Source: a virus
Direction: 5' to 3' (one strand)
Virus record (IMG/VR): IMGVR_UViG_3300031227_008087
Span: 1-26,223 of that record
DNA: 26,223 nt
The position numbers were made by a program, and so were the translations under genes. This document shows positions 8,502 through 25,644 of the stretch, one piece after another (positions within the stretch are counted from its first letter, which is position 1; the number at the start of each line of letters is the position of its first letter). Under the pieces are notes generated by a model. That model was not told the origin of the DNA. It did no database searches and was given only the letters and a program-made list of their open reading frames with translations.

Positions 8502-8622
8502 GCAATATTTCTCCACATCTTGGGCATACTATATTCCACGTTGCCCTATTTTCCTGCCATGGTTGTGATACCATTGTATATTCTTTATGACCAAATATCC
8601 GGCACCACAATTTTTTAAGCAT
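8494..8622 (-). CDS. DUF1660-like small zinc-binding protein
   Basis: 42 residues: MLKKLWCRIFGHK... then CPRCG near the C-terminus. The C-x-x-FGHK plus CxxC layout is that of DUF1660, short phage proteins probably holding a zinc ion. The ATG overlaps the end of the upstream gene and its stop overlaps the Tpt1 start. Confidence 0.65.
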   Translation of the reverse strand: MLKKLWCRIFGHKEYTMVSQPWQENRATWNIVCPRCGEILRG

Positions 8623-9868: not shown

Positions 9869-10213
9869 TTACAATAATTTCAGATTTCCTGTAATTTTAT
9901 CAATTTCTTCTATTGGTCCGGGACCAACTGCAATTGAGGTTATGGTTGCAACCCCATTGAATTCAGTTCTCCCAGCGTCAGTTACCAATGAACATGGTAA
10001 TTTAGCTTCTTTAGCTTTTTCGTACAATTCCAAAAGTTCATCTTCTGAATCCACACTTACTGCTATTTTCGTAAATTGTCCAGATAACCATTCCTGAACA
10101 AATTCATGCTTTGGATAATCCAATAATACTATCATTGAAGCGTGTGCTCCTTGAGCAATCATTTTACCCTTACGCATTTTCAAATCTTTTCTCAATACTA
10201 TCACTTGTTTCAT
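9869..10213 (-). CDS. Peptidyl-tRNA hydrolase 2 (Pth2)
   Basis: 114 residues, the size of archaeal/eukaryotic-type Pth2, which releases peptides from dropped-off peptidyl-tRNA. The signature RKDLKMRKGKMIAQGAHA fills residues 8-25, followed by a typical alpha/beta pattern to TSIAVGPGPIEEIDKITG. A longer frame upstream exists, but ATG 10213 starts exactly at the family N-terminus, with AGGTG nearby, and overlaps no domain. The gene is followed by promoter copy 2. Presence of the archaeal-type enzyme in a phage is unusual. Confidence 0.9.
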   Translation of the reverse strand: MKQVIVLRKDLKMRKGKMIAQGAHASMIVLLDYPKHEFVQEWLSGQFTKIAVSVDSEDELLELYEKAKEAKLPCSLVTDAGRTEFNGVATITSIAVGPGPIEEIDKITGNLKLL

Positions 10214-10214
10214 A

Positions 10215-10343
10215 TTAACACCTATCTTTGCATTGGTATTTCCTGTATTCCTTCCAACTGCGTTCATCACCCCAATCACCATAACTTCCATTGCACCCAC
10301 TGTGGGGTCCACAGAACCAGCATTTGCTTTCACTCTGTTCCAA
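10215..10343 (-). CDS. Small Cys-rich, probably zinc-binding protein
   Basis: Frame ends CWFCGPHSGCNGSYGDWGDE...YQCKDRC with five Cys and four Trp codons, all TGG, just before the Pth2 start (TAA-TATG). No in-frame ATG exists; TTG at 10343 is the likeliest start, but the frame is open to 10404. The composition strongly suggests a real protein. Confidence 0.5.
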   Translation of the reverse strand: MEQSESKCWFCGPHSGCNGSYGDWGDERSWKEYRKYQCKDRC

Positions 10344-10409
10344 TTTAAGTATGTATAATTTGTGGTATTGTTGGCTATTGGTTGTCCAAATATTAAGAAT
10401 ACAACACCT

Positions 10410-10916
10410 TTATATAGTATTTCCAGTCGAGCCGAAACCGCTTTTACCGCGCTTAGTTCCAGAAAACTTACTAACAAGTTGTACATCGCAATGCTCTCCT
10501 ACTATTAATTGAAACAGTGAAGTTCCAGCCTTAATCATTTTTTCTGTGCCTAGATTGTCAACTTTAGAAATCAAGTCGCCTCTATATCCTGAGTCGATAA
10601 CTCCAACACTATTAGCTAAACGTAGTGAGGTTTTGGAGATACTTGAACGTGGAGTCATTAGTATATAGGAAGGTCTTAGCTTATCAAGATTTCCATGTGC
10701 TGCATTATAGAATGGTTCACTGATATGAAACTCTATCTGTACCTTGTGATTGATAACATTCGAAGTTTGCAACTTCCTTACGGCATGAGGCTCTGGAACA
10801 AATAGGTCAAATCCTGCATCCATAGGGTCACGCTCTGATATCTGCTTTTTGTATAGTTCGACAATTTCTTGTGAAATGTCCGAAACTCTTATCTTTAACA
10901 GTGAGTGATTGCTCAT
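10410..10916 (-). CDS. dut: dUTPase (dUTP diphosphatase)
   Basis: 168 residues, trimeric-type dUTPase that hydrolyses dUTP to dUMP and pyrophosphate. All five motifs are present: DAGFDLFVP (33-41), PRSSISK (89-95), GVIDSGYRGDL (105-115), GTSLFQLI (131-138) and the C-terminal RGKSGFGSTG (156-165). A loop around 55-80 is longer than in bacterial enzymes. AAAGGA precedes ATG 10916; stop TAA. Confidence 0.93.
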   Translation of the reverse strand: MSNHSLLKIRVSDISQEIVELYKKQISERDPMDAGFDLFVPEPHAVRKLQTSNVINHKVQIEFHISEPFYNAAHGNLDKLRPSYILMTPRSSISKTSLRLANSVGVIDSGYRGDLISKVDNLGTEKMIKAGTSLFQLIVGEHCDVQLVSKFSGTKRGKSGFGSTGNTI

Positions 10917-11364: not shown

Positions 11365-11982
11365 TCATATCCTTTTGCCCCCATGCTTATGCCCTCGATT
11401 TTCATTCTTATCAAGTTTTGAGACTATCTCCTCGTAGGTCTTTATTCTAAGCCGTTCAGCTAAGTCTATTGCTCTGATTAGAATGTCTGCCATTTCTTCA
11501 CCAAAGTTTTCAAAATCATTATCTCTGTGCGCTTCAATAGCCTCTGAACACTCGGTCATAATTAGTCCAAGCATTGCGGTTATTTTATAATCGTCATTCC
11601 AATCCTCTAGGGTTATAGGTGTCCAGCCGTTAGCATCATTTATCTTGGCAATCCTGAGTCCAAGTTCACTAAGGGTAAGTTCAGCTATCGCCTGTTCTGG
11701 TTGGCGGATTTGCCATGCCTCAAGCTCCTTCGATTGGGCTGTGAGTTGTTGGTGTAGGTCATGCACGCGCTCATTGGCGTGATTCTCAAGGTGGTTATAT
11801 TTACCTTTCAGCTTAGTGTTCTCCTTTTGGAGTTCTTCGCACTTGGATTTCATCCATCCACTAAATCGCTCGTAATAATCAGCAAGTTTAACATTCAGTT
11901 CAAATGAATTGTAATCCCTAACGTCAGGCAACTTGTAGCCTGTCTCTTTCTCAAACTGCTCTCTAAGACTCATCTCGCTCAT
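11365..11982 (-). CDS. Phage protein with coiled coil and MazG-like domain
   Basis: 205 residues. The N-terminus MSLREQFEKETG is a motif of lambdoid-type phage accessory proteins and recurs in the gene at 12634. Residues 55-90 are coiled coil. The C-terminal half matches the MazG/RS21-C6 NTP pyrophosphohydrolase helical core, with ECSEAIEAHR and EEMADILIRAIDLAER supplying the acidic metal-binding residues. It starts in an ATGA overlap with the upstream gene and ends in TGA. Confidence 0.75.
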   Translation of the reverse strand: MSEMSLREQFEKETGYKLPDVRDYNSFELNVKLADYYERFSGWMKSKCEELQKENTKLKGKYNHLENHANERVHDLHQQLTAQSKELEAWQIRQPEQAIAELTLSELGLRIAKINDANGWTPITLEDWNDDYKITAMLGLIMTECSEAIEAHRDNDFENFGEEMADILIRAIDLAERLRIKTYEEIVSKLDKNENRGHKHGGKRI

Positions 11983-13286: not shown

Positions 13287-14069
13287 CTATTTAAAGTTAA
13301 TTACGACGCGGTTCCTTTTTTCATAAATATAATCTCCTATAAGCGGGGTTCTTAAAATTTCTTTAATATTAAATAATTCGCGTTCTCAAATTACCTCAAC
13401 ATCATATCCCATATCATTTAGATATTGAATACGAATTTTGTCTTTTGTCCATATAGTTTTGGCCTTAACTCGTTTACCACCAGGATATGATATTAATTCG
13501 TTAGCATCATATTTCGCTGGATTGGCATGTCAATAATCACCAAAAATTTCTATTATTAAATTTTTATTTGGTATATAGAAGTCTGTAATATAAGGCCCTA
13601 CATTATATTGAAATTCAAATGAAACATTCATATCATTTAAAACATCAATCGTTTGTTTTTCAGGTTTATTGGGACAATCGCCTCTACCTGATAATATTGC
13701 CTTTTGATGTGATTTTCTAAATTCTGGGTCATTATCTCATTTTGATTTAAGCGATTTTGAAATTTTAGATTTCGTTTCCTCGGTGGGTGGTAACCTATTA
13801 TTAGCAGCATCCACCATTTTAATTCTATAAATATTAGAATTTCATTTTTTAGTTATAGCATCACTTACTTTTTGTTTATGTTCATTTGATACTATTCTAC
13901 CTTTTTGTGATTCACTTATTTTTTGTTTTACTTCACTCGACCATTTAAAACCAACACGTTTTCTACCATTATAATTAGCCGAACAATGTTTTGAACAAAA
14001 TTTTCTATGTTTTTTTGACGGGTATGTTTTAAATACCTCACCACATTCTATACATGTAAGTTCAATCAT
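13287..14069 (-). CDS. VSR-like homing endonuclease with four in-frame TGA codons
   Basis: 260 residues when TGA at 13842, 13737, 13530 and 13386 (lowest base of each codon) is read as Trp. The N-terminus is a Zn-finger (CIECG...FCSKHC). NUMOD3-like repeats follow (FKWSSEVKQKISES, TEETKSKISKSLKSKW). The nuclease domain has ITDFYIPNKNLIIEIFGDYWH and VEVIWERE, the core of EDxHD/VSR homing nucleases. In these two motifs the W is encoded by TGA here; other Trp use TGG. GAGGAG precedes ATG 14069. Stop TAG. Confidence 0.85.
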
Positions 14070-14097: not shown

Positions 14098-14136
14098 GAA
14101 AATTTCTTTTGTAACTAACTATTGACTATAAATTTT

Positions 14137-14340
14137 TAACTAATCTTCTGTAGCCAGGATTCTGTCATTTAAGCGACCCATTGAACTTGTGGCACTAACC
14201 CGGTAATCATAGAATTACGCCCATTCTATACCTGTTTAGCTTGCTCCCTCTGCGGTCCAAACGATTTATTAAATCTCCCTCATTTGCGTAATGGAGTCCT
14301 GAGCTTCCTCACCGTAGTGCGAATCGCCAAAGATTAGTTA
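14137..14340 (-). ncRNA. rnpB: Compact RNase P RNA
   Basis: About 204 nt, folding in the canonical order. P1 is an 11-bp perfect helix between 14330-14340 and 14137-14147. P2 is GCGA/TCGC. P3 is CAC-UACG-GUG. CR-I then reads GAGGAAGCUCAGGACUCC, and the 3' CR-V reads ACAGAAUCCUGGCUAC. P4 forms as AGC(U)CAGGA with UCCUGGCU, leaving the conserved bulged U. CR-IV (GGGAGCAAGCUAAACAGG) precedes a P15/P16-like hairpin. Only about 60 nt separate CR-I and CR-IV, so the specificity domain is largely missing. RNase P trims 5' leaders of pre-tRNA; here it adjoins the tRNA array. Confidence 0.85.
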
Positions 14341-14347
14341 AATTTAC

Positions 14348-14476
14348 TTGTCATTATAGTCCTGCTTTCCGACTAAACTTTTTTGAATTACATCCTCACC
14401 AGTAAAAACGACTGTTTAGGTCTCCTGAGTTAAGCAATGGTGACCCGACTTTCCTCTCCGTAGAGCGACAAGTCAG
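14348..14476 (-). ncRNA. RNase P-like structured RNA, possible diverged paralog
   Basis: A second RNA fold directly upstream. ACTTGTC/GACAAGT closes it. CTC-TACG-GAG copies the P3 hairpin, followed by GAGGAAAGTCGGGTC, a CR-I-like block. TCACC/GGTGA forms a P5-like helix. No convincing CR-V was found, so function is unclear. It may be a decayed duplicate or a separate RNA. Confidence 0.5.
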
Positions 14477-14479
14477 AGA

Positions 14480-14689
14480 TTAATTTTTTATTTTATACGG
14501 ACTGTCATCCGACAATATGCCTTGTGGCGGTATCGGTCTCGGAGCTGGCGGTTTATGATTCAACCATTGCTTGTCCGTTGGGCCGACTAATGTTGTAGTT
14601 GATCGTTTTGTTATTCTGTGACCACATCGGCATTCAAAATAATTATTGACGCCTGTTTTGTGATCGAATTTGTGCCAATGTATGTGCAT
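14480..14689 (-). CDS. Hypothetical protein (69 aa)
   Basis: MHIHWHKFDHKTGVNNYFECRCGHR...: His-rich start, one CxC, Pro-rich tail. ATG 14689 is chosen because GGAG lies upstream and promoter copy 3 would start transcription about 18 bases before it. The stop codon abuts the RNase P-like RNA, so protein and RNAs share a transcript. Confidence 0.65.
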   Translation of the reverse strand: MHIHWHKFDHKTGVNNYFECRCGHRITKRSTTTLVGPTDKQWLNHKPPAPRPIPPQGILSDDSPYKIKN

Positions 14690-14742: not shown

Positions 14743-14762
14743 GCGTTATTTTTAATAAAATG

Positions 14763-14845
14763 CAGAAACTGGAGGGATCGAACCCCTACCCGTTAGGATA
14801 CCCACGCGTTCGAAGCGTGTTGCCGGCCATTCAGCGGCAGCTTCT
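14763..14845 (-). tRNA. tRNA-Ser(CGA)
   Basis: Class II, 83 nt. Acceptor AGAAGCT/AGTTTCT, perfect CACGC/GCGTG anticodon stem, loop TTCGAAC, G73. Confidence 0.88.
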
Positions 14846-14850
14846 AAGTG

Positions 14851-14936
14851 CGGAAGTAGAGGGAATCGAACCCCCGAACCATATTTCAGGCCAGCCGCTT
14901 TCAAGGCGGTGTCCTCGTCCATGCCGGACTACTTCC
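14851..14936 (-). tRNA. tRNA-Ser(TGA)
   Basis: Class II, 86 nt. Acceptor GGAAGTA/TACTTCC, loop CTTGAAA, long variable arm, G73. Five bases from the Ser(CGA) gene. Confidence 0.88.
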
Positions 14937-15039
14937 ATATTGTCATGTCGTTTGTTGCAACATGTAATAATAACATGTCGTTAAATCGTCATAATTTAGA
15001 CACGTTATTTCTTCATGTCTATACCTTAGACATGTATTG

Positions 15040-15130
15040 TACTCCCAGTTGGACTCGAACCAACATCTCGACTTCATCTGAATCTGACCAGTTTATAAAA
15101 CTGGGGCTTTTACCATTAAGCTATGGGAGC
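15040..15130 (-). tRNA. tRNA-Ile(TAT) with a long variable arm
   Basis: 91 nt. Perfect CCAGT/ACTGG anticodon stem with loop TTTATAA gives anticodon TAT. The variable region is 23 nt and can form GATTC-AGAT-GAA(G)TC, so a normally class I isoacceptor is class II here. A73. Would read AUA without lysidine. Confidence 0.75.
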
Positions 15131-15135
15131 TTGTG

Positions 15136-15209
15136 TACTCTCGGCAAGATTCGAACTTGCAACCTTCTGGGTCGAAACCAGGAGCTCTGTCCAGTTGAGC
15201 TACGAAAGC
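15136..15209 (-). tRNA. tRNA-Arg(TCG)
   Basis: 74 nt. Acceptor GCTTTCG/CGAGAGT, loop TTTCGAC, T arm GCAAG/CTTGC, A73. Confidence 0.87.
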
Positions 15210-15214
15210 ATGTG

Positions 15215-15285
15215 TACAGGATGGGGGAATTGAACCCGCGTTTTCTGGATGTAAGCCAGATGTTCTACCATTGAACTAATCCTGC
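15215..15285 (-). tRNA. tRNA-Val(TAC)
   Basis: 71 nt. Acceptor GCAGGAT/ATCCTGT, TCTGG/CCAGA stem, loop CTTACAT, A73. Confidence 0.88.
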
Positions 15286-15409
15286 TGGTTTGTCGAGCTT
15301 TTATTAATTTCCATTCTATCTGCAGATAAATGATGATAGTGATTCACGCCAATGGCACTATAATTATTCGATACCCACAGTGCACGCGTTGCCAGTATCA
15401 AAATGATTG

Positions 15410-15480
15410 TGCTCCAGAGCAGAGTTGAACTGCCGTCTTAGGTATATCAGACCCATATTCTTCCGTTGAACTACTGGAGT
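15410..15480 (-). tRNA. tRNA-Ile(GAT), copy 1
   Basis: 71 nt. Loop CTGATAT, T arm GGCAG/CTGCT, A73. The acceptor has an A1-C72 mismatch, as in tRNA-Gln(TTG). Confidence 0.83.
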
Positions 15481-15600
15481 ATTGGTATGTTTTTATAGCG
15501 AAACATACAAAGCTGACAATGTTTGATGATTTTCGGTTGCCACATTCACTACCTGATTAGTGAAATCCCCGAGTGCTTACAATTGTCATTTGCACTAGCG

Positions 15601-15676
15601 TGGGCCATATCGGATTCGAACCGATCTGATATCCTGATTGCAAAACAGGTGACCACCCCTAGCAGTCCCATGGGCC
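15601..15676 (-). tRNA. tRNA-Ala(TGC)-like with C3-C70
   Basis: 76 nt. Loop TTTGCAA gives TGC, but the acceptor has a C3-C70 mismatch instead of the G3-U70 Ala identity pair, and the anticodon stem ends in T31-T39. Its unusual D arm (GGGACTGCTAGG) is shared with tRNA-Asp at 22044, so it is probably a diverged duplicate. Charging identity doubtful. Confidence 0.65.
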
Positions 15677-15788
15677 AGATTCAATATCCTATTCACACCT
15701 ACGCGAAGATGTGAAAATGTCTTGCACCGTTTGTTTGATAATGCATTACCATTCAAAACGATTTACGCGAAAACACTTTCGGATATGG

Positions 15789-15862
15789 TACCTCGAGTTG
15801 GAATCGAACCAACGACCTTTGGTTTATCAGACCAACGCTCTAACCTACTGAGCTACCGAGAT
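15789..15862 (-). tRNA. tRNA-Ile(GAT), copy 2
   Basis: 74 nt. Acceptor ATCTCGG/TCGAGGT, TTGGT/ACCAA stem, loop CTGATAA, A73 followed by an encoded CCA, one of four such genes in the window. Confidence 0.87.
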
Positions 15863-15952
15863 AGATGCGGACTCGCATATTTTGGGGGAAATACACAAGC
15901 CCTAAGTTGAAATTGATGTAAGTTCAATAATGATAACGAGATACATCTTTTG

Positions 15953-16026
15953 TCGCAGTAAGTGGATTCGAACCACTGATCTTCCGGATATGAGCCGACT
16001 GCCTTAGGCCTCTTGGCGATACTGCG
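15953..16026 (-). tRNA. tRNA with CAT anticodon (Met or Ile2)
   Basis: 74 nt. Perfect acceptor CGCAGTA/TACTGCG, loop CTCATAT, T arm AGTGG/CCACT, A73. Not initiator-like (1-72 paired). The last anticodon-stem pair is G-A. Confidence 0.8.
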
Positions 16027-16170
16027 ATAGGTGACTGGAATTTCGAACCGCAATGTAGATATCATAAACATGCAGTTTGGCCGTTTCTCCCGATTCATTG
16101 TACGGCATTGATTCTAGGGTTATCCCAATTGAATAATAAATGTACAAATATTATCCAACATTGTCACAAG

Positions 16171-16243
16171 TGGGACACCCCGGTAACGATCCGGACTCTC
16201 TGGAGCTTCAACCCAGCGCAAAGACCTCTCTTGCTCATGTCCC
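16171..16243 (-). tRNA. tRNA-Phe(GAA) with altered T-loop
   Basis: 73 nt. Acceptor GGGACAT/GTGTCCC, loop TTGAAGC, A73. The T-loop is ATCGTTA instead of TTCGANN (A54 and T58). Its 5' end is one base from the stop of the adjacent homing endonuclease gene. Confidence 0.82.
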
Positions 16244-16244
16244 A

Positions 16245-16934
16245 TTAATTTATTAATTTTTCATATTGTATTAATTCTTTTTTTCTAACTATTTCAATAT
16301 TTGTATCTGAATAGATTTCCATAACCAATTCCATTTTCCGCTTATCGTTTCCCCACCAATACCCTTTAATTTCGAAATATTTATTTAATAATGGGGAATA
16401 AAAATCTGGAGTATAATTATGTTTAACATTTTCATCATCCACCCATTCAAACGTGTGGGAATCCATTCCAGATGTAGGTCGTACCCAATTTGGGTCGATT
16501 AAATCCAACACTTTGGCAAATCTAATTTCCCACGTTCCTTGCAAATATACAATTTCACCATTTTGTTTAGAATATTCAAATCATTTGCATCTACCACCTC
16601 GGTTGTTTTGGGACGCGGATAAGCTCATTTTCATCTTGGATTTATCGGAATGTTTCTTGCCCAAAAATCCGGGTTGAATTTCCCCATTTTTGATTCTGGT
16701 GGAATATGTTTCACCAGCTTTTATTAAGCTGGAGTGGGTTTCTTTTGTCAACCCCCTATTCCATATAATTCTCGACCCATTTTCATATCCTTGGTTCGGA
16801 TTATGAGATTTTCCATCTCCATGTGTTCTCCATATATGAGTTGAAATCCCCTTTTTAGTGTATGTTTTTCCACAATGGGGGCATTTGTATTTTCCGTTAT
16901 CGGTGAGCCATTCTTCTTGTAAATTTATAATCAT
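16245..16934 (-). CDS. PD-(D/E)XK homing endonuclease with one in-frame TGA
   Basis: 229 residues if TGA 16581-16583 is Trp. A C2H2-like finger opens it (CPHCGKTYTKKGISTHIWRTH), then a NUMOD3-like segment (FLGKKHSDKSKMKMS), then RCK-x-FEY...GTWEIRFAKVLD and YTPDFYSPLLNKYFEIKGYWW, where D and ExK form the nuclease core. The family usually has W after RCK, exactly where TGA stands. Start ATG 16934 follows AAAGGA. The leader motif lies at 16944-16961. The gene is wedged between a broken tRNA-Thr and tRNA-Phe. Confidence 0.82.
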
Positions 16935-16943
16935 AATATCATC

Positions 16944-16961
16944 CTTTATTATAAGTATCAA
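16944..16961 (-). promoter_or_regulatory. Conserved leader motif of the PD-(D/E)XK homing endonuclease
   Basis: Minus strand TTGATACTTATAATAAAG, sharing 17 of 18 bases with the VSR-like endonuclease leader although the proteins are unrelated in their nuclease domains. Confidence 0.45.
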
Positions 16962-16975
16962 AAAGTATAATTTTC

Positions 16976-17013
16976 GTACAAGTCCTGTGTTCTACCATTG
17001 GAGCTACCGAGCC
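16976..17013 (-). pseudogene. 5' half of tRNA-Thr(TGT), broken at the anticodon loop
   Basis: Acceptor 5' strand GGCTCGG, T8-A9, a complete D arm, CAGGA and loop CTTGTAC are present. The sequence then turns into the leader of the homing endonuclease gene. No matching 3' half was found. An intact tRNA-Thr(TGT) lies at 19853. Confidence 0.7.
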
Positions 17014-17066
17014 ATAAGTAATAAGAATCGTACAACACTAAGTAATAACAATCGCACGAACTTATT

Positions 17067-17240
17067 TTATTTCTGTTTATAAGGGTAATTTACATCGGTA
17101 ATATTATTTTCTTTAAGATGAGCATCCAATTCCGCTCGAGTCTGGAAAAACCATTCTCCTTCAATGCCCTCTTCTGGGTGGAAAAAACTCAAATAAAATA
17201 AATCTTCTTCATATAAATAATGCCAATAATAACCTTCCAT
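17067..17240 (-). CDS. Small acidic protein (57 aa) inside the tRNA array
   Basis: MEGYYWHYLYEEDLFYLSFFHPEEGIEGEWFF...: aromatic and acidic, no known domain. GGAG precedes ATG 17240 by about seven bases; TAA stop. The Trp codons are TGG. Confidence 0.65.
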   Translation of the reverse strand: MEGYYWHYLYEEDLFYLSFFHPEEGIEGEWFFQTRAELDAHLKENNITDVNYPYKQK

Positions 17241-17256
17241 ATAAATCTCCTTTTTG

Positions 17257-17339
17257 TCCCGTTAGATGGAGTCGAACCAACATTGTCATATTGACGACGG
17301 CTTTACAGGCCGCGGGGCATCCACTTGCCCAATAACGGG
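17257..17339 (-). tRNA. tRNA-Tyr(GTA), class II with C1-G72
   Basis: 83 nt. Loop CTGTAAA, variable arm with GTCA-ATA-TGAC as in bacterial Tyr tRNAs, but the acceptor starts C1-G72, the archaeal/eukaryotic identity pair. A73. Confidence 0.85.
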
Positions 17340-17344
17340 TTGTG

Positions 17345-17416
17345 TACTCCCACAGGGATTCGAACCCCGACTGTCAGTTTAGAAGACTGACGTGCCTCCA
17401 GTTACACTATGGGAGC
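17345..17416 (-). tRNA. tRNA-Arg(TCT), copy 1
   Basis: 72 nt. Acceptor GCTCCCA/TGGGAGT, TCAGT/ACTGA stem, loop CTTCTAA, A73. Confidence 0.88.
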
Positions 17417-17422
17417 AGTGTT

Positions 17423-17614
17423 TTAATTTCTAGACCAGAAATAAAATCGTCTGGTAATTTCAATTGAAGCTCCAGCAACAATGCCCAAACCTGCAATAAA
17501 CAGATTTCCTGACATTAGTGCGAGTCCCGCTACAATATACAACGCGAACCTTGAGACTCCGAATATTCCAAATACACTTTCTCTAGCTTCACGATCCATT
17601 TCAAATTTTGTCAT
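17423..17614 (-). CDS. Small membrane protein (63 aa)
   Basis: A charged N-terminus, then FALYIVAGLALMSGNLFIAGLGIVAGASIEI, which can form one long or two short membrane spans, and a basic tail. AAAGG before ATG 17614; TAA stop. Function unknown; isolated among tRNA genes. Confidence 0.65.
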   Translation of the reverse strand: MTKFEMDREARESVFGIFGVSRFALYIVAGLALMSGNLFIAGLGIVAGASIEITRRFYFWSRN

Positions 17615-17632
17615 TTTATAACCTTTCTTGTT

Positions 17633-17679
17633 TCATTTTTTCTGATACATAGCCGCTTGTATCATTTTTTCTGATACAA
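17633..17679. repeat. 17-bp direct repeat, second copy palindromic
   Basis: TCATTTTTTCTGATACA occurs at 17633-17649 and 17662-17678. The second copy extends into a hairpin TTGTATCA/TGATACAA with a 7-nt loop. No U run follows on either strand. Lies between the small membrane protein and tRNA-Lys(CTT). Confidence 0.6.
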
Positions 17680-17683
17680 TATG

Positions 17684-17756
17684 TACACCCGGTAGGTGAC
17701 GATCCTACAACCTCCCGGGTAAGAACCGGGTGCTCTGCCAATTGAGCTACGGATGC
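17684..17756 (-). tRNA. tRNA-Lys(CTT) with altered T-loop
   Basis: 73 nt. Perfect CCCGG/CCGGG anticodon stem, loop TTCTTAC, T-loop ATCGTCA (A54, T58), A73. Confidence 0.83.
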
Positions 17757-17864
17757 ATGTAACTTGATAATGGGGTGATTGTACTCCTAAGAGTTGAGTG
17801 AGTCGTACACTTTACTAGATTATCGTGTCACCCTTCTACTCACGGTCATTATTACCAAGTTGTG

Positions 17865-17946
17865 CAGGGGTAGAAGGATTCGAACCCTCAAGTTCCGAAG
17901 AACACAGTTTTGGAGACTGCTTATCTCAGCCGATGAAAGTACCCCT
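17865..17946 (-). tRNA. tRNA-Trp(CCA) with remodelled D arm and extra variable arm
   Basis: 82 nt. Acceptor AGGGGTA/TACCCCT with G73 and loop CTCCAAA match the bacterial Trp pattern closely. The variable region is 14 nt and holds GTTC-TTCG-GAAC, a UUCG-capped arm not found in normal tRNA-Trp. The D-arm positions pair poorly. Only tRNA-Trp found. Confidence 0.8.
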
Positions 17947-17953
17947 ATGTTTG

Positions 17954-18028
17954 TAGCTCCCCAGGGAGTCGAACCCTGACCTAAACAGTTTCTAAAACTG
18001 CCACCTCTACCAATTGGGTTAGAGAGCC
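17954..18028 (-). tRNA. tRNA-Leu(TAG), class I
   Basis: 75 nt. GCAGT/ACTGT stem, loop TTTAGAA, A73. The variable loop is only 6 nt, whereas bacterial Leu tRNAs are class II. Confidence 0.82.
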
Positions 18029-18162
18029 ATTGAGGGAGTCTTTTTGATTTACGGATTCACTATAGTTTACCGATGAAAGCTTTACTCCCCGTCCTCTTTC
18101 AAATGGGTGGGCTCAGGAACATCACTATTGATGGGGGTCGTGAAGTCCATTTGCCCGTATTG

Positions 18163-18235
18163 TAGCGCTGGTCGGACTCGAACCGACACTTTATGATTTT
18201 TGAAACCATCTTCTCTGCCATTGGAATACAGCGCC
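18163..18235 (-). tRNA. tRNA-Leu(CAA), class I
   Basis: 73 nt. Acceptor GGCGCTG/CAGCGCT, stem ATGGT/ATCAT, loop TTCAAAA, variable loop 5 nt, A73. Shifting the loop one base would give TCA, but the stem would then have no pairs, so CAA is kept. Confidence 0.72.
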
Positions 18236-18259
18236 ATTTCCTAAATATTGTTTTGATTG

Positions 18260-18353
18260 TGGACAGTTGGGAGTCGAACCCAGAAGACGATACTAATTCT
18301 AATTTGTAATTATTGGAAATTGAATTTTGACCGTGCAACCATTGCTACTGTCC
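18260..18353 (-). tRNA. tRNA-like gene with an expanded anticodon arm
   Basis: About 94 nt. Acceptor GGACAGT/ACTGTCC and a T-loop TTCGACT are present, but the D arm is short and the anticodon region is a long hairpin: ACGGT/ATCGT, then a 3x3 internal loop, then AATTCAATTT/AAATT(A)GAATT. No anticodon can be assigned. Could be an intron-containing or decayed tRNA. Confidence 0.5.
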
Positions 18354-18369
18354 TTGTTTGGTAGGTTGA
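18354..18369 (-). repeat. 16-nt direct repeat, downstream copy
   Basis: Minus strand TCAACCTACCAAACAA; matches the copy at 19203-19218 in 15 of 16 bases. It abuts the 5' end of the tRNA-like gene. Confidence 0.7.
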
Positions 18370-18685
18370 GATTACACCTCTTATAGTATCCCTTTGGGAA
18401 GATTATTTCGTTCCTTCCTTTGTCCACGACGACCCGCTAGGGTCTTTACTCTTGCGAGTAGTAAGATACCAGTCCCAGTAGTTATAGACTACCACTCTTT
18501 TCGTTTAGGTTCTCTCCACAGTTACTAATTACTATTCAACCTTGCAGGGCTGACTGAGGTTTTAACACCACTAGCACTTTCACCATAAAACATCCGCACC
18601 TTGTGAGTTTGGTTGCCCCCAGTTCAACTATGTTGCTAGGGATTAGGGAATTTTGCTCCTAAACGCTATCGGTCTTTTTACTTGA

Positions 18686-18757
18686 TTTCAACAATGGGAC
18701 TTGAACCCATAACTGTCTGCTTAGAATGCGGAAGCTCTACCATTGAGCTATATTGAG
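18686..18757 (-). tRNA. tRNA-Arg(TCT), copy 2, embedded in the large ncRNA
   Basis: 72 nt. Loop ATTCTAA, T arm ATGGG/CCCAT, A73. The acceptor has a C1-A72 mismatch and the anticodon stem one C-A mismatch. Confidence 0.8.
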
Positions 18758-19202
18758 TCTTTGTGGACATTAGAAGCTGCGCCGATCAGCGATGGCATTC
18801 TCCCTTTTGGGGAAAACATACCATTCAACTTCATACCATTCTCTGGATAAGAGATTTTAGTGGTTCTTAATTGTTCCCAGTCTTACCCTGCGATAAGATG
18901 TTTGGTTATACTTCCAACCTATAGCGTTAGCCCTCAGTCGGATGCTTTCCCTAGAAAACACACATAATTACTAGAATCAAGCTCTCAGTATCCCTACCTT
19001 GAACAAAATTCTCTGGCATTCCCTATTGGATTTCTCCTCACCAGCTGTTCCACGACAACCAGATATTCCCCTCTTCCCGTATTAAAGGGCTGAGGCAAAT
19101 ATGTTAAACCATTGTATAGATGTCTCCCACAAGTGAGAGCGACTTTTCTACGAGTCCTTTAGTCCCGGTTTCCCAGGGTTATCTGATGACGCCATACCGC
19201 CA

Positions 19203-19218
19203 TTGTTTGGTAAGTTGA
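19203..19218 (-). repeat. 16-nt direct repeat, upstream copy
   Basis: Minus strand TCAACTTACCAAACAA, located at the predicted transcription start of the large ncRNA. Confidence 0.7.
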
Positions 19219-19245
19219 TTATACTTTTTTGAACAGTCGCATCAA
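19218..19245 (-). promoter_or_regulatory. Promoter of the large ncRNA
   Basis: Minus strand TTGATG, 16-base spacer, perfect TATAAT. Different from the repeated promoter family. Predicted start near 19211, inside the direct repeat. Confidence 0.65.
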
Positions 19246-19383
19246 TACAGATTGTTCACCAAAATTTAATTTTTCAAAAAACATTTAATATAAGATTGTT
19301 TCCAACCCTTTTTGTATATATATATATTAGGGTGGAGTCTCAAACATCGCTTTTATTTTCATAAAAGTGATATTAATTTTTAG

Positions 19384-19458
19384 TACTCCCAGAAGGATTT
19401 GAACCTACGGCCACTTGGTTCGTATCCAAGTGCTCTATCCAGACTGAGCTATGGGAGC
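19384..19458 (-). tRNA. tRNA-Arg(ACG)
   Basis: 75 nt. CTTGG/CCAAG stem, loop ATACGAA, acceptor GCTCCCA/TGGGAGT, A73. A34 is presumably converted to inosine by host TadA. Confidence 0.87.
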
Positions 19459-19465
19459 GATTATT

Positions 19466-19597
19466 TTACCAAGCTTTTTTGTGCTTAGGTTTACGATTAT
19501 ATTTCGTTTTATCCTTAAACACTTTACGAGTAGGAATTGTTTCCCTCATCGTAGGCCTGATCATCGTTTTGTCTTTTTTTATTGTTCTCTTTTTCAT
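19466..19597 (-). CDS. Small basic protein (43 aa), possibly leaderless
   Basis: MKKRTIKKDKTMIRPTMRE...KDKTKYNRKPKHKKAW: almost a third Lys/Arg, resembling small basic peptides of T4-like phages. The ATG lies at the predicted start site of promoter copy 4, so the mRNA would have essentially no leader. An internal ATG is an alternative. Ends just before tRNA-Arg(ACG). Confidence 0.6.
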   Translation of the reverse strand: MKKRTIKKDKTMIRPTMRETIPTRKVFKDKTKYNRKPKHKKAW

Positions 19598-19602
19598 ACT
19601 TC

Positions 19603-19631
19603 AAGATACAAGATAAAAACGACAAAGTCAA
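19603..19631 (-). promoter_or_regulatory. Repeated sigma70-type promoter, copy 4
   Basis: Minus strand TTGACT-N17-TATCTT with spacer identical to copies 1 and 6. Confidence 0.8.
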
Positions 19632-19658
19632 CTGTTTTCTTTTTTTATTTGAAATTAG

Positions 19659-19845
19659 TACGTGAGGGAGGAATTGAACCTGACCCCGGACAAATATTTC
19701 CTCGCACCACTTACAATTGATATGGATTGAATGTATCAATGTCACTATTACATCACTTATGAAAGACCTAAGATATAGATTGGTCATGACTCCAATGTAC
19801 TCTTAAAACCTAAAATGACAGCTCTACCATCTGAGCTACTCACGC
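19659..19845 (-). tRNA. tRNA gene interrupted by an insert of about 110 nt
   Basis: 187 nt. Both ends form a perfect acceptor, GCGTGAG/CTCACGT with one wobble, followed by T8-A9 and a canonical D arm GCTCAGATGGTAGAGC. The T-loop TTCAATT is near the 3' end with a weak stem. Between them the anticodon region runs on: GTCAT reappears as ATGAC 27 nt later, then ATTGATA/TATCAAT forms a 7-bp hairpin. The anticodon cannot be assigned (TTTAG is a candidate loop start). It could carry an intron or be a pseudogene. Confidence 0.6.
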
Positions 19846-19852
19846 GTTTATG

Positions 19853-19925
19853 ATCCCCCGGCCGGTCTCGAACCGACAAGCCCGACTTACAAGGCCGGAT
19901 ATTTACCAATTAATATTACAGGGGA
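19853..19925 (-). tRNA. tRNA-Thr(TGT)
   Basis: 73 nt. Acceptor TCCCCTG/CGGGGGA, stem CCGGC/GTCGG, loop CTTGTAA, discriminator T. Confidence 0.87.
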
Positions 19926-19931
19926 ATGTGT

Positions 19932-20001
19932 GCCATGCAATGGGATTCGAACCCATATCTGCTTCTTCAACGAAGCCGTCCTGCCATTAGACCATACATC
20001 A
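19932..20001 (-). tRNA. tRNA-like gene with a noncanonical anticodon loop
   Basis: 70 nt. T arm ATGGG/CCCAT and D arm GTCTAATGGCAGGAC are normal, but the best anticodon stem GCTTC/GAAGC leaves a 6-nt loop GTTGAA. The acceptor has mismatches. Phe(GAA) or Ser(TGA) are possible readings; decay is also possible. Confidence 0.5.
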
Positions 20002-20097
20002 TGCTTCCAACCAGTGTAGTTTTCAGCAAAGGATTTAATTTACTGTCATTCAAGTGAGTCACTACTCCCACCATTCCCATTTTCAATTAGCCCCTAG

Positions 20098-20169
20098 CTC
20101 CAAGAGAGAATTTCGAAATCTCGACCCTGCGATTAACAGTCGCACGCTCTGCCTCTGAGCTACCTTGGA
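20098..20169 (-). tRNA. tRNA-Asn(GTT), copy 1
   Basis: 72 nt. Acceptor TCCAAGG/TCTTGGA, perfect TGCGA/TCGCA stem, loop CTGTTAA, G73. Confidence 0.87.
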
Positions 20170-20247
20170 ATATGTCCCCAGTAAAATAACAGCACTTAAA
20201 GGCGCCCTGCTTATTATTCATTTTGTTATACCGCTGGGGGCGGTATG

Positions 20248-20320
20248 CTCCGACGGATGGATTCTAACCACCATCTTTCACGTTAACAGCGTGTCGTTTT
20301 AACATTAATACTACGTCGGA
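20248..20320 (-). tRNA. tRNA-Asn(GTT), copy 2, with T19-A56
   Basis: 73 nt. Perfect acceptor TCCGACG/CGTCGGA, loop CTGTTAA, G73. The T-loop is TTAGAAT (A56 for C56) and the D-loop reads AATGTTA (T19 for G19), so the elbow pair is swapped together. Confidence 0.82.
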
Positions 20321-20366
20321 AATTGGATTGGGTTTTTGAATAGAACCCTTCTGAAAACTATTATGG

Positions 20367-20439
20367 GGTGAAAGCTGAGAATTGAACTCAGGTCTCCGGG
20401 GTCACAGCCTGGCGTAATTACCACTATACCACAATCACC
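20367..20439 (-). tRNA. tRNA-His(GTG)
   Basis: Loop CTGTGAC; G at -1 opposite C73, the His hallmark. Two T-T mismatches in the acceptor stem. CCA is encoded after C73. Confidence 0.87.
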
Positions 20440-20456
20440 ATGTATGTTTTTGTTTG

Positions 20457-20530
20457 AGCACACAGTCAGATTCGAACTGACGTCCTTCGGGTTTGCAATC
20501 CGATGCCTATTGCCACTCAGCCACGTGTGC
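20457..20530 (-). tRNA. tRNA-Cys(GCA)
   Basis: 74 nt. Acceptor GCACACG/TGTGTGC, loop TTGCAAA, T arm GTCAG/CTGAC, U73 as expected for Cys. Confidence 0.88.
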
Positions 20531-20623
20531 ATTAATTGGATTCGAGGTAAGGAATTTCACCTTTGCTTTTCTAATACAATGGTTCGTCAACCAAAGCATC
20601 TACGCCTTTAACGCTCTCAAGTG

Positions 20624-20696
20624 TAGTTCCATAGGGGATCGAACCCTAATCCTCGGCTTGAGAAGCCGAAATCCTATCCGGTTAGACGATGGAACC
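20624..20696 (-). tRNA. tRNA-Glu(CTC)
   Basis: 73 nt. Perfect TCGGC/GCCGA stem, loop TTCTCAA, D arm with CCGGATAGG, A73. Confidence 0.88.
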
Positions 20697-20781
20697 ATGT
20701 GTCCAATTACGCGATTGGACTTGGAATTTCAGTTTGATTTTCTAAACACGTGGTGTCAACTCCTTAAATACCAACGCTGCG

Positions 20782-20853
20782 TCGTCTATCGGGGAGTCGA
20801 ACCCCGCTCCCAGCCTTGAAAGGGCTGTGATATAACCGATAATCCAATAGACG
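20782..20853 (-). tRNA. tRNA-Glu(TTC), copy 1
   Basis: 72 nt. Perfect acceptor CGTCTAT/ATAGACG, CAGCC/GGCTG stem, loop CTTTCAA, A73. Confidence 0.88.
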
Positions 20854-20858
20854 TTGTG

Positions 20859-20931
20859 TAGCTCCAGAGAGTCTCAATCTCTCATCCCCGGATTGAAAGT
20901 CCGGAATCCTATTCAGTTAGACGATGGAGCC
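20859..20931 (-). tRNA. tRNA-Glu(TTC), copy 2, with A19-T56
   Basis: 73 nt. CCGGA/TCCGG stem, loop CTTTCAA. The T-loop is ATTGAGA (T56) and the D-loop reads CTGAATAGG where Glu(CTC) has CCGGATAGG (A19), again a paired change at 19-56. Confidence 0.82.
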
Positions 20932-21066
20932 AAATGCTAAGGTAGGGCGGTATTGCCGCCTAAAGGAATCACCCTTTATTTTCACTCTGATTACTTTTTC
21001 TACTCGATTAACTGTTTACTTTTTCTTCAGAATGCCCCAATCCATTTCGTGATTGAATCTAGCTCG

Positions 21067-21138
21067 TGGGTTGTAAAGGAGTTGAACCTCTATCTGGTCG
21101 CTTTACAGGCGAGTGCATTACCCCAATGCTAACAACCC
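21067..21138 (-). tRNA. tRNA-Tyr(GTA), class I
   Basis: 72 nt. Perfect acceptor GGGTTGT/ACAACCC, loop CTGTAAA, variable loop only 5 nt, A73. Differs in class from the Tyr tRNA at 17257. Confidence 0.82.
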
Positions 21139-21198
21139 AGATGTAAATTTTGTGTGAGACGCTGAGCGTCTTTACGGACAAATATTACTAAAACCTTG

Positions 21199-21271
21199 TG
21201 GAAAGAGTGGGAATCGAACCCACCACAGTCTGCTTGCAAGGCAGTCTCGCCCCCTTGGAACATGTCTCCCC
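21199..21271 (-). tRNA. tRNA-Ala(TGC)
   Basis: 73 nt. Acceptor GGGGAGA/TCTTTCC includes G3-U70, the alanine identity pair. Loop CTTGCAA, T arm GTGGG/CCCAC, A73. The D arm is atypical. Confidence 0.82.
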
Positions 21272-21355
21272 GTCCTGTGAATTCTTTACAGGATATCACT
21301 AGACTGAAGGAACACCTTTGACCTATGATCACTTGATCTCCGGCTGTGTTACATG

Positions 21356-21427
21356 CGGAACTGATGGGTAACGATCCCACTTCCACGGCTTGACAAGCCG
21401 TTGTCCATGCCTACTGACTCCAGTTCC
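21356..21427 (-). tRNA. tRNA-Asp(GTC), copy 1, with altered T-loop
   Basis: 72 nt. Perfect acceptor GGAACTG/CAGTTCC, ACGGC/GCCGT stem, loop TTGTCAA, T-loop ATCGTTA, G73. Confidence 0.85.
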
Positions 21428-21641
21428 AAATATCCATATACTTCTGAAGGTAATTTAAATTACGAGGTAATTTCAATGCAGGATTGGCATCGGCGGTTGT
21501 GTCATACATCCAGCTGAAAAGGAGTACATCAGTCGTGTACCCAGACCTCGATTATTGTCCCCTCATATATCGAGAATGAGCCGAGTGGCGTAACCCTGTG
21601 TCACTCATAGGGAGTGCGATGCAGCACTATTTCAGAAATGG

Positions 21642-21714
21642 TAGCGGATGAGGGATTCGAACCCCCGACGTCTTGGTTATGAGCCAAGCAAGCTGACCAC
21701 TGCTCCAACCCGCA
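21642..21714 (-). tRNA. Initiator tRNA-fMet(CAT)
   Basis: 73 nt plus encoded CCA. The TGCGGGT...GAGCAG body matches bacterial initiators, position 1-72 is a T-T mismatch, the anticodon arm is CTTGG-CTCATAA-CCAAG, A73. It keeps two of the three G-C pairs below the loop. Confidence 0.87.
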
Positions 21715-21726
21715 ATTTTTAAATGG

Positions 21727-21793
21727 TGGCGGGGCCAGCAATCGAAGCTGGAAACGTGAGCTTATGAGGCTCCGCGGCACCTAGCTCCCCGCA
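21727..21793 (-). tRNA. Second initiator-like tRNA(CAT) with reduced D arm
   Basis: 67 nt plus encoded CCA. TGCGGGG/CCCCGCC leaves a T1-C72 mismatch; loop CTCATAA; T arm CCAGC/GCTGG. Only 13 nt separate acceptor and anticodon stem, so the D stem is at most 2 bp. Confidence 0.7.
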
Positions 21794-21802
21794 ATGTATG
21801 TT

Positions 21803-22018
21803 TTAATAAAGTTGTGTTTTTTTATGCAGGGAATACCGAGTGGTGTCTCCATTCATGATAATACTATATGTACCTGCCGTATCTGCAACGAGTTCCAAAC
21901 GAAATTCGTGATTTTCAAGTGATTCTAATGCCGTATCCCGTTGATTATCCATATAATCAAATGCGATAAGCCATACCACTAAAATTAGTAAAATCGCTAT
22001 TCCTCGTGTCATTTTCAT
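21803..22018 (-). CDS. Small membrane-anchored protein (71 aa)
   Basis: MKMTRGIAILLILVVWLIAFDYMDNQ...: one N-terminal span (about residues 5-21), then an acidic then beta-rich tail. AAAGG before ATG 22018; TAA stop. No family recognised. Lies between tRNA-Asp and the initiator pair. Confidence 0.65.
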   Translation of the reverse strand: MKMTRGIAILLILVVWLIAFDYMDNQRDTALESLENHEFRLELVADTAGTYSIIMNGDTTRYSLHKKTQLY

Positions 22019-22043
22019 TTTGTTACCTTTATTTTTTGTTAAG

Positions 22044-22120
22044 CAGACTATACGGGATTCGAACCCGCCTGACATTCTTCCTTGACAGGGAAGTGACCAC
22101 TCCTAGCAGTCCCATAGTCT
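22044..22120 (-). tRNA. tRNA-Asp(GTC), copy 2
   Basis: 77 nt. Perfect acceptor AGACTAT/ATAGTCT, CTTCC/GGAAG stem, loop CTGTCAA, G73. Shares its odd D arm with the tRNA at 15601. Confidence 0.83.
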
Positions 22121-22142
22121 ATTAATTCTTCGGGCAAACCTT

Positions 22143-22215
22143 AACGAGTAGTTGGAATCGAACCAACATTTCATCAGGTTATAACTGAGTGGGATATCCA
22201 TTACCCTATACTCAC
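22143..22215 (-). tRNA. tRNA with ATA anticodon (Tyr codon UAU)
   Basis: 73 nt. D arm GGGTAATGGATATCCC, T arm GTTGG/CCAAC, stem CTCAG/CTGAT and loop TTATAAC give anticodon ATA. A34 is very rare outside Arg(ACG). A one-base shift would give TAT (Ile) but breaks the stem. Confidence 0.65.
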
Positions 22216-22241
22216 GATTTACCCAGTTTTTTTAAACTTTG

Positions 22242-22316
22242 AACGGGATATCAGATTCGAACTGATACTTTAAGATTGGAAGTCTCGCGTGCTAAGCCGT
22301 TAAACACTAATCCCGC
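22242..22316 (-). tRNA. tRNA-Gly(TCC)
   Basis: 75 nt. Acceptor GCGGGAT/ATCCCGT, loop CTTCCAA, T arm ATCAG/CTGAT, U73 as usual for Gly. Confidence 0.86.
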
Positions 22317-22336
22317 ATTTAATTCTTTAAATACAT

Positions 22337-22400
22337 TAGAAGGATTTTAACCTTCAACACATGATAAAGTGCCTCATTAAACCAAACACCTGAACGCTTG
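22337..22400 (-). pseudogene. Decayed tRNA remnant
   Basis: GAAGG-TTAAAAT-CCTTC is a T arm with A56, and GTTTAATG resembles a D loop, but no acceptor partner or anticodon arm can be formed. Confidence 0.4.
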
Positions 22401-22491
22401 GGTCCTTTTCGCATGTCCATATCATATACGCACTGGCCAGTACTGTAATATATAATATAACAATTTACATTCTGCCATAATGTATTTAGTG

Positions 22492-22564
22492 TACACCGGG
22501 AGGGTGACGATCCCCCAACCTTGGGCTTAAAAGGCCCCTGCTCTGCCTATTGAGCTACCGGTGC
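22492..22564 (-). tRNA. tRNA-Lys(TTT), copy 2, with altered T-loop
   Basis: 73 nt. Acceptor GCACCGG/CCGGTGT, loop CTTTTAA, T-loop ATCGTCA, A73. The outer anticodon-stem pair is G-A. Confidence 0.83.
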
Positions 22565-22675
22565 ATGTGTGGATTGAGTTTTATTAAGAGCGAACCCACA
22601 AATGCTCTTGCAATATTTTGGAGCAGATTTCCACTATCACCCTGCAGGAATGAAATGGTACTCCACGGTCACAAA

Positions 22676-22757
22676 AAGTTCCTATGGGATTTGAACCCAT
22701 CCAGCTTTCGCTCCTGTCACATGCCGTAAACAGAGATAACCCGTTAACCACGCTTTT
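22676..22757 (-). pseudogene. Decayed class II-like tRNA remnant
   Basis: T arm ATGGG/CCCAT and 3' acceptor strand AGGAACT are intact, and AGC-GAAA-GCT resembles a variable arm. The 5' acceptor strand is absent and the anticodon region is a 12-nt loop. Confidence 0.45.
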
Positions 22758-22944
22758 ACTTAAATCTTAAAAACAACATTTCAGCGACCAATCGGTCTTC
22801 GGTGCTCGTTACCGCAGTTCTTTAAGGGAGACAGAGCCGAATCATCCCACTGTTATTGGTTGTAATATTTTTTATTTATATAATTTTCAATCAATCCTTC
22901 AATTTCAATCCTATGTATATTATCAATCGCAAATTATAAATATC

Positions 22945-22979
22945 AATGTCGAAAAAAAAAGTTTCGAATATTCGACATT
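22945..22979 (-). terminator. Terminator-like hairpin after tRNA-Pro
   Basis: On the minus strand TCGA-ATAT-TCGA is followed by AAC and nine T (22952-22960). A larger AATGTCGA/TCGACATT stem encloses it. Starts five bases after tRNA-Pro. Confidence 0.5.
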
Positions 22980-22984
22980 ATTTG

Positions 22985-23058
22985 TAGCGGAAGTGGGCGT
23001 CGAACCCACCTGTCCAAGTTTCCAAAACTCAGATGCCTAAACCCTCGGTCACTCCACT
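22985..23058 (-). tRNA. tRNA-Pro(TGG)
   Basis: 74 nt. Acceptor AGTGGAG/TTCCGCT, loop TTTGGAA, T arm GTGGG/CCCAC, A73. Confidence 0.86.
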
Positions 23059-23059
23059 A

Positions 23060-23275
23060 AATGTGGCTCCCAATGAAGGGAACCACTTTATATTAAATAG
23101 TCATACGAGATACCTCATAATAACTATCGTTTTTCTACTATTATACCCAATTGTCAAATAACTGACGCGGTTGATATGTCATAATCAACTGTGCAACTCC
23201 CTGTCAACGCGATGACGATTCGCGGCTATACTAACACATCGAAGGTTAGTATGCGGTTTGCCTTTTGTTCCTGTC
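23060..23275 (-). other. Structured spacer with strong hairpins
   Basis: Holds TGGTTCCC/GGGAGCCA just upstream of tRNA-Pro, GTTGAT/ATCAAC, and ATACTAAC/GTTAGTAT with a 9-nt loop at 23229-23253. No ORF. Could be a small RNA or tRNA-processing signals. Confidence 0.4.
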
Positions 23276-23286
23276 ACAAATATATC

Positions 23287-23354
23287 AAAATGTAGATGGC
23301 TCTGAATCATCTTCTCCCAGTTCGACTGGTCGCTTTCCATTAAGCTATACATTT
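23287..23354 (-). tRNA. 68-nt tRNA-like element
   Basis: Perfect 7-bp acceptor AAATGTA/TACATTT, T8-A9 and D arm GCTTAATGGAAAGC. The T-arm is GATGA-TTCAGAG-CCATC. The anticodon arm prefers CCAGT-CGA-ACTGG with a 3-nt loop, so it probably cannot decode. Confidence 0.5.
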
Positions 23355-23398
23355 TTTTCAAAAATCTTTAGAAACTTATTCCGTTTCTTTCATACCTG

Positions 23399-23427
23399 AA
23401 TATACAAGATTTAAACGACAAAGTCAA
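23399..23427 (-). promoter_or_regulatory. Repeated sigma70-type promoter, copy 5
   Basis: Minus strand TTGACT-N17-TATATT. Closest of three stacked promoters to the array. Confidence 0.78.
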
Positions 23428-23494
23428 GCTTTATTTTCGTTTATTTCAAAGTATTTTCAAAAATCTTAGGAGAGGTTCTCTTCTCACATATAAC

Positions 23495-23523
23495 AAGATA
23501 CAAGATAAAAACGACAAAGTCAA
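23495..23523 (-). promoter_or_regulatory. Repeated sigma70-type promoter, copy 6
   Basis: Minus strand TTGACT-N17-TATCTT, spacer identical to copies 1 and 4. Lies between tRNA-Leu(TAA) and promoter copy 5. Confidence 0.8.
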
Positions 23524-23555
23524 CCGTTATTTTCACTTTTCTCAAATTATTTTTG

Positions 23556-23630
23556 TACCCGCCCCGAGGCTCGAACTCGGACTGTGTGGTGTTTAAGACC
23601 AGTCCCTCTTTCCATTTGGGGTAGACGGGC
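23556..23630 (-). tRNA. tRNA-Leu(TAA), class I
   Basis: 75 nt. Loop CTTAAAC, T arm CCGAG/CTCGG, A73, variable loop 5 nt. Third Leu tRNA lacking the class II arm. Confidence 0.83.
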
Positions 23631-25454: not shown

Positions 25455-25464
25455 TTTTTGTCTC

Positions 25465-25644
25465 CTAGTTATTGTCGTCCACTTCCAACTCAATAAAGTT
25501 CTGAATTGCTTCGGATGCCCTTGCAGCTTCCTGAATTAATTGTTCCAGAACTGGATTGTTGTATTGGGTTGACACTTCACTCAATTTTGTGATTATTAAT
25601 GTCAGTCTATCAATTTTGTTTTGAACTTGAATTCCGTATCTCAT
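25465..25644 (-). CDS. Small hypothetical protein (59 aa)
   Basis: MRYGIQVQNKIDRLTLIITKL..., helical and acidic at the end. GGAG precedes ATG 25644. Its TAG stop overlaps the ribosome site of the membrane-protein gene, so the two are likely co-translated. Confidence 0.65.
   Translation of the reverse strand: MRYGIQVQNKIDRLTLIITKLSEVSTQYNNPVLEQLIQEAARASEAIQNFIELEVDDNN

Follow-up and report, generated by a model that had tools for sequence, protein, structure and literature searches.

RNase P RNA is an ancient RNA enzyme that trims tRNAs. The locus studied here raises the question of whether a phage can encode its own RNase P RNA, and what such an RNA keeps when its specificity domain (S-domain) is nearly gone. 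The window analysed is 26,223 nt of viral DNA (IMG/VR record IMGVR_UViG_3300031227_008087, positions 1 to 26,223). A sequence-only reading had proposed a compact, phage-encoded RNase P RNA here, beside a large tRNA array, with P1 to P4 (bulged U in P4), CR-I, CR-IV and CR-V in order and almost nothing as the S-domain; it named a covariance-model search and the conservation of P4 in related phages as checks. The Rfam model of bacterial class A RNase P RNA (RF00010) aligned over its whole length to the minus strand at 14338-14135 with 46.4 bits and an E-value of 4.6e-13 (relaxed threshold, 861 nt; 3.3e-15 in the record-wide search), and the paired P1 flanks widened the limits of this RNA, termed A, to 14342. 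All of the proposed elements were found in the proposed order: A contains the universal RNase P RNA core of P1, P2, P3 and pseudoknotted P4 with its bulged U, and CR-I, CR-IV and CR-V follow in order in the alignments to RF00010 and to a model of phage RNAs (R1, see below). A lacks the CR-II and CR-III of a full S-domain, as its P5 strands enclose only 45 nt. Because the S-domain is almost gone, the 46.4 bits fall below the curated gathering threshold of 100 bits of this 367-position model, and A is therefore missed by routine annotation; a scan of the window at the Rfam gathering threshold listed GOLLD RNA and 37 tRNAs and no RNase P. Given a score under this threshold, A is, judged by its sequence, a type A-like relative and not a standard class A member.

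The coordinates of A, its parts and the neighboring features are collected in Table 1. Of the 34 nested pairs of A, 33 are canonical, as are the eight P4 pairs formed by AGC(U)CAGGA with UCCUGGCU around the bulged U. A departs from the family consensus in J18/2 (AAGUUCAAUG vs AGAUAAAUG), in a P15 loop without GGU and in one P7 pair, which is A-G; P18 is missing from the window form. Thermodynamic folding of A by itself gave nothing remarkable (z = -2.0), since the program cannot form a pseudoknot such as P4, and we therefore judged the structure by covariation.

Table 1 Features of the RNase P RNA locus in the window and P8-loop insertions in three relatives.
Feature	Position	Strand	Sequence or evidence
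Compact phage RNase P RNA, A	14135..14342	-	~208 nt; RF00010 match, R1 match, paired P1 flanks
P1 5' strand	14330..14342	-	UUUAACUAAUCUU; own P1 duplex -14.6 kcal/mol, top of 22 possible 3' flanks
P2 5' strand	14321..14328	-	GGCGAUUC; partner 14172-14179; family covariation in 7/7 P2 pairs
P3 hairpin CAC-UACG-GUG	14310..14319	-	
CR-I	14297..14310	-	GAGGAAGCUCAGGA; includes P4 5' strand AGC(U)CAGGA (14297-14305), bulged U
Mini S-domain (P7 + P8 hairpin 14263-14275)	14248..14292	-	45 nt between P5 strands; aligned to GGAGAnnUAAnnAnUCG
P5 3' strand + CR-IV	14231..14247	-	GGAGCAAGCUAAACAGG; P5 100% paired in family, both-side changes in 4/4 pairs
P15/P16 stem-loop	14202..14232	-	loop UGGGCGUAA where family has GGUGAGCAA
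P2 3' strand	14172..14179	-	GGGUCGCU; pairs with 14321..14328; family covariation
CR-V	14148..14165	-	ACAGAAUCCUGGCUACAG; includes P4 3' strand UCCUGGCU (14152-14159); RF00010 and R1 alignments
P1 3' strand	14135..14147	-	AAGAUUAGUUAAA; P1 duplex test
3'-truncated RNase P-like RNA, B	14343..14485	-	directly upstream of A; R1 match
B parts	CR-I 14443-14456; mini S-domain 14409-14427; CR-IV 14378-14395	-	
Main tRNA array, likely substrates	14762..23630	-	ARAGORN; holds 35 tRNA genes (46 in the whole window)
P8-loop insertions	L070:6294-6906; L099:10752-11032; L087:807-1039		

Relatives of A occur in ~20 other phage contigs. Four full-length IMG/VR relatives (L004, L006, L007 and L008) share a 17-mer, and one of them, L004, by itself reached 56.3 bits with RF00010 (E = 1.5e-14); L039, L044 and L051-L056 were found with gapped patterns. 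A 65-nt BLAST match between the window and the 642 kb genome LR756502.1 covers the region upstream of the element first reported and led to an RNase P-like RNA in that genome (RF00373, E = 5.6e-6), and a 301-base BLAST query from L044 matched the 735 kb genome LR756501.1 with 82% along half of its length (E = 2e-34). Both belong to the huge phages of Al-Shayeb et al. Further members lie in contigs of 508, 527, 482, 321 and 308 kb. The final scan relied on a pattern from elsewhere in the molecule that owed nothing to CR-I or the S-domain; it yielded members in contigs of 482, 527, 154, 90, 78 and 69 kb, among others. Matches to the pattern GGAGCAAGCTAAACAGG and to two gapped patterns were rejected as coding sequence only, as were L005, L058 and the contig matches L048-L050 on inspection (coding or AT-rich).

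To judge A independently of its own sequence, we employed R1, a covariance model of 14 phage RNAs that excludes the window. R1 recovered the window at 14148-14331 with 128.8 bits (E = 1e-29), the next best match reaching 12.2 bits. A plain MAFFT alignment of the 14 non-window sequences, in which nine helices were assigned by hand, showed pairing in 92.8% of cells vs 67.2% when shuffled, changes on both sides in 34 of 42 pairs, and a covariation score of 0.716 vs at most 0.141 in slid controls. The alignment with the window added, which is fitted to the model and hence biased toward its structure, gave 94.7% paired cells vs 67% in shuffles, again 34 of 42 pairs changed on both sides, and a covariation score of 0.760 vs at most 0.12 in slid controls and 0.209 after shuffling. 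P4 was excluded from R1 because it is a pseudoknot, and P1 lies outside the model. Though absent from the model, P4 is paired in 98.3% of cells of this second alignment, with compensatory changes in six of its eight pairs. The P1 duplexes have a mean energy of -14.8 kcal/mol with their own flanks vs -4.6 kcal/mol with swapped flanks, and the own flank ranks first in 20 of 22 members. Family conservation of CR-I, parts of CR-IV and parts of the S-domain motif arises in part by selection, because these bases were fixed in the search patterns; the pairing evidence is unaffected by this. Both checks thus came out in favor of a phage-encoded compact RNase P RNA, with significant scores from two covariance models and a conserved P4, and the RNA is probably an active enzyme.

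The proposal that almost nothing stands in place of the S-domain holds for the strong reduction and fails for the near-absence: the S-domain persists as a short, conserved P7/P8 hairpin of 45 nt. Across the family it follows the motif GGAGAnnUAAnnAnUCG, with a P8 loop of seven bases (YUAAnnA) and a third P8 base pair that covaries between CG, UA and AU (GAC/GUC, GAU/AUC and GAA/UUC). The P8 loop is enlarged by insertions in three relatives, by ~450 nt in L070, ~90 nt in L099 and ~66 nt in L087. The insertion in L087 contains a stretch resembling a tRNA T-arm.

Directly upstream of A lies a second RNase P-like RNA, B, which the sequence-only reading had overlooked. B was reported by R1 only in the record search (82.1 bits, E = 1.5e-18) and in an unfiltered local search (80.5 bits over model positions 13-142). 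It has the 5' strands of P1 and P2, P3, CR-I, the mini S-domain, CR-IV and P15/P16, lacks the 3' strand of P2, the 3' strand of P4 with CR-V and the 3' strand of P1, and stops exactly at the start of A. A placement of its CR-V elsewhere in the window was ruled out, since no match exists in the window, and we read B as a truncated tandem duplicate. The true truncation of B, together with a homing endonuclease gene just downstream, might suggest that A is likewise a decaying relic, i.e. a captured RNase P fragment of no present function. We consider this very unlikely, because a relic would have lost pairs: A retains 41 of the 42 pairs scored and every pair of P1, its alignment runs from end to end with an E-value of 1e-29, and pairing in the family is clearly constrained.

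The phage origin of the RNA is supported by the phage gene families and 46 tRNA genes of the window and by the occurrence of members in LR756502.1 and LR756501.1. These observations also bear on the idea that A is a cellular RNase P RNA, for example of the reduced type of CPR bacteria, on a misassigned contig. CPR bacteria do have diverged RNase P RNAs that lack helices (PMC8172020). Nevertheless, such an origin is extremely unlikely, as family members reside in complete, curated huge phages and the window holds GOLLD RNA besides its phage families and tRNAs. Furthermore, a gapped pattern fitting four IMG/VR members matched nothing but protein-coding sequence in 84,980 species of bacteria and archaea, and R1 found no match in 693 bacterial genomes of three phyla outside the CPR, a weak negative given that 8-12 candidates per genome were scored.

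The large tRNA array said to adjoin the RNA is indeed present; the main array accounts for most of the tRNA genes that ARAGORN found in the window. The base at position -1 is U in 31 of 45 window tRNAs, and U is the base usually favored just before the RNase P cut. The RNA co-occurs with tRNA arrays, lying within or beside them in the window, L004, L039, L044, L051 and L054; in L004 it begins directly after a tRNA, and in L039 it sits between two tRNA genes. Some family loci are not near tRNAs. Just upstream of P1, 7 of 22 members have TAnnTTTG boxes of the Bacteroidota promoter type, and hairpins followed by a U-run, resembling intrinsic terminators, come after P1 in several members.

Several other features of these loci concern tRNAs or decoding. 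Discriminator-CA instead of CCA is encoded by 31 of 45 window tRNA genes (1324-23630), with CCA in only two, and likewise by 8 of 10 in L039, 10 of 14 in L054 and 3 of 4 in L006. The RNase P RNA of L052 has, at a distance of ~400 nt, a tRNA with the anticodon CUA (L052:5592-5667; ARAGORN label Pyl), a possible amber suppressor. Besides phage families and ClpP, the window encodes the RNA 2'-phosphotransferase KptA (7968-8516) and the peptidyl-tRNA hydrolase PTH2 (9869-10486), both on the minus strand near the tRNA array. The GOLLD RNA (18363-18833, minus strand; 191.6 bits, above the curated threshold) has a tRNA-Arg gene (18686-18757) inside it. Three minus-strand frames, at 50-790, 13287-14069 and 24516-25493, are open only with TGA read as Trp, and two of them are homing-endonuclease-like. 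Nearby genes, e.g. 11365-11982, appear to stop on TGA. The in-frame TGA codons may reflect recoding, suppression or decay.

RNase P RNA acts with a protein partner in the reading developed here, and two of 24 family records encode RnpA (PF00825): LR756502.1 at 525189-525473 (E = 3.4e-14) and the 508 kb contig carrying L053 (E = 5.8e-14). The RNR signature (RNRVKRLMR) is present in both proteins, and a profile built from the pair matches RnpA proteins of solved structure; one passes the NCBIfam rnpA cut-off, with the other just short of it. In neither genome is the gene adjacent to the RNase P RNA. A search of the 22 remaining records, among them the complete 735 kb genome, detected no RnpA, and a peptide-pattern search for this protein added no third phage. 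Some huge phages thus appear to carry both RNase P subunits, which suggests that they supply the tRNA-trimming enzyme themselves, while most members would depend on the host protein. We lean toward the view that very large phages encode a complete RNase P, consisting of this distinct, compact class of RNA and, in some, their own RnpA, which would make tRNA maturation independent of the host. The scarcity of phage RnpA would also suit a decoy, i.e. an RNase P RNA homolog that binds host RnpA or pre-tRNAs and dampens host RNase P without cutting, and a reduced S-domain would weaken substrate discrimination. Such a role is improbable, as the family keeps a catalytic core (P4 with its bulged U, CR-I, CR-IV, CR-V and AGAU(A/G)AAUG) beyond what a protein decoy needs, two phages do encode RnpA, and the tRNA-array setting favors use of the enzyme.

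We consider it likely that A is an RNase P RNA that matures phage tRNAs, with a type A-like core and an S-domain shrunk to the 45-nt P7/P8 hairpin. A would be transcribed, as the promoter and terminator motifs of its relatives suggest, and the folded RNA would bind an RNase P protein, either host RnpA or, in at least two huge phages, the phage's own. The ribonucleoprotein could then cut the 5' leaders of the tandem phage tRNAs, which, in the infected cell, would help to release mature tRNAs from the array. The C-domain of the E. coli RNA alone cleaves, ~100-fold more slowly (~1% active; PMC5839562), and the RNase P RNA of Pyrobaculum has naturally lost nearly its whole S-domain, as outlined in PMC4919922 (citing Lai et al. 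2010). By analogy, these two cases make catalysis by the phage RNA plausible, and the latter argues that a full S-domain is no universal requirement. The phage RNase P RNAs are a genuine class, apparently an unreported one, and most likely serve the maturation of phage tRNAs.

We found no earlier report of a phage or viral RNase P in the open-access literature, subscription papers and preprints being largely beyond reach; an earlier report is therefore possible. Phage RNase P is absent from the main text of the huge-phage paper, of a jumbo-phage comparative study and of a 2026 review. RNase P has hitherto been regarded as a cellular enzyme. If our reading is true, phage translation systems gain a new component in its RNA, in some cases with RnpA, and the near-deletion of the S-domain across diverse huge phages provides a natural test of what this domain is for. 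The compact phage RNAs are also a reason for lower Rfam thresholds in phage annotation.

Among known systems, the phage RNA resembles bacterial type A (RF00010) in sharing P1-P5, P15/P16, CR-I, CR-IV, CR-V and the bulged U of P4 in the same order; it differs in its length of ~208 nt vs the 367-position model, in the replacement of P7-P14 by the 45-nt P7/P8 hairpin and in the lack of P18 in the window form. Compared by published description, the minimal Pyrobaculum RNA (archaeal type P/T) likewise keeps the catalytic domain with the S-domain nearly lost, but it is archaeal and works with archaeal proteins, whereas the phage RNA has bacterial features, a conserved mini S-domain and, in two genomes, an RnpA of bacterial type. 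The RNase P RNAs of CPR bacteria also miss helices and score below Rfam cut-offs, yet they are cellular and lack individual helices, e.g. P12-P14 and P16-P18, rather than the whole S-domain (PMC8172020). Finally, the theta ribozymes are, like the RNA described here, phage-encoded ribozymes linked to tRNA processing, but they have a self-cleaving HDV-like fold and form a family separate from RNase P (PMC10879173).
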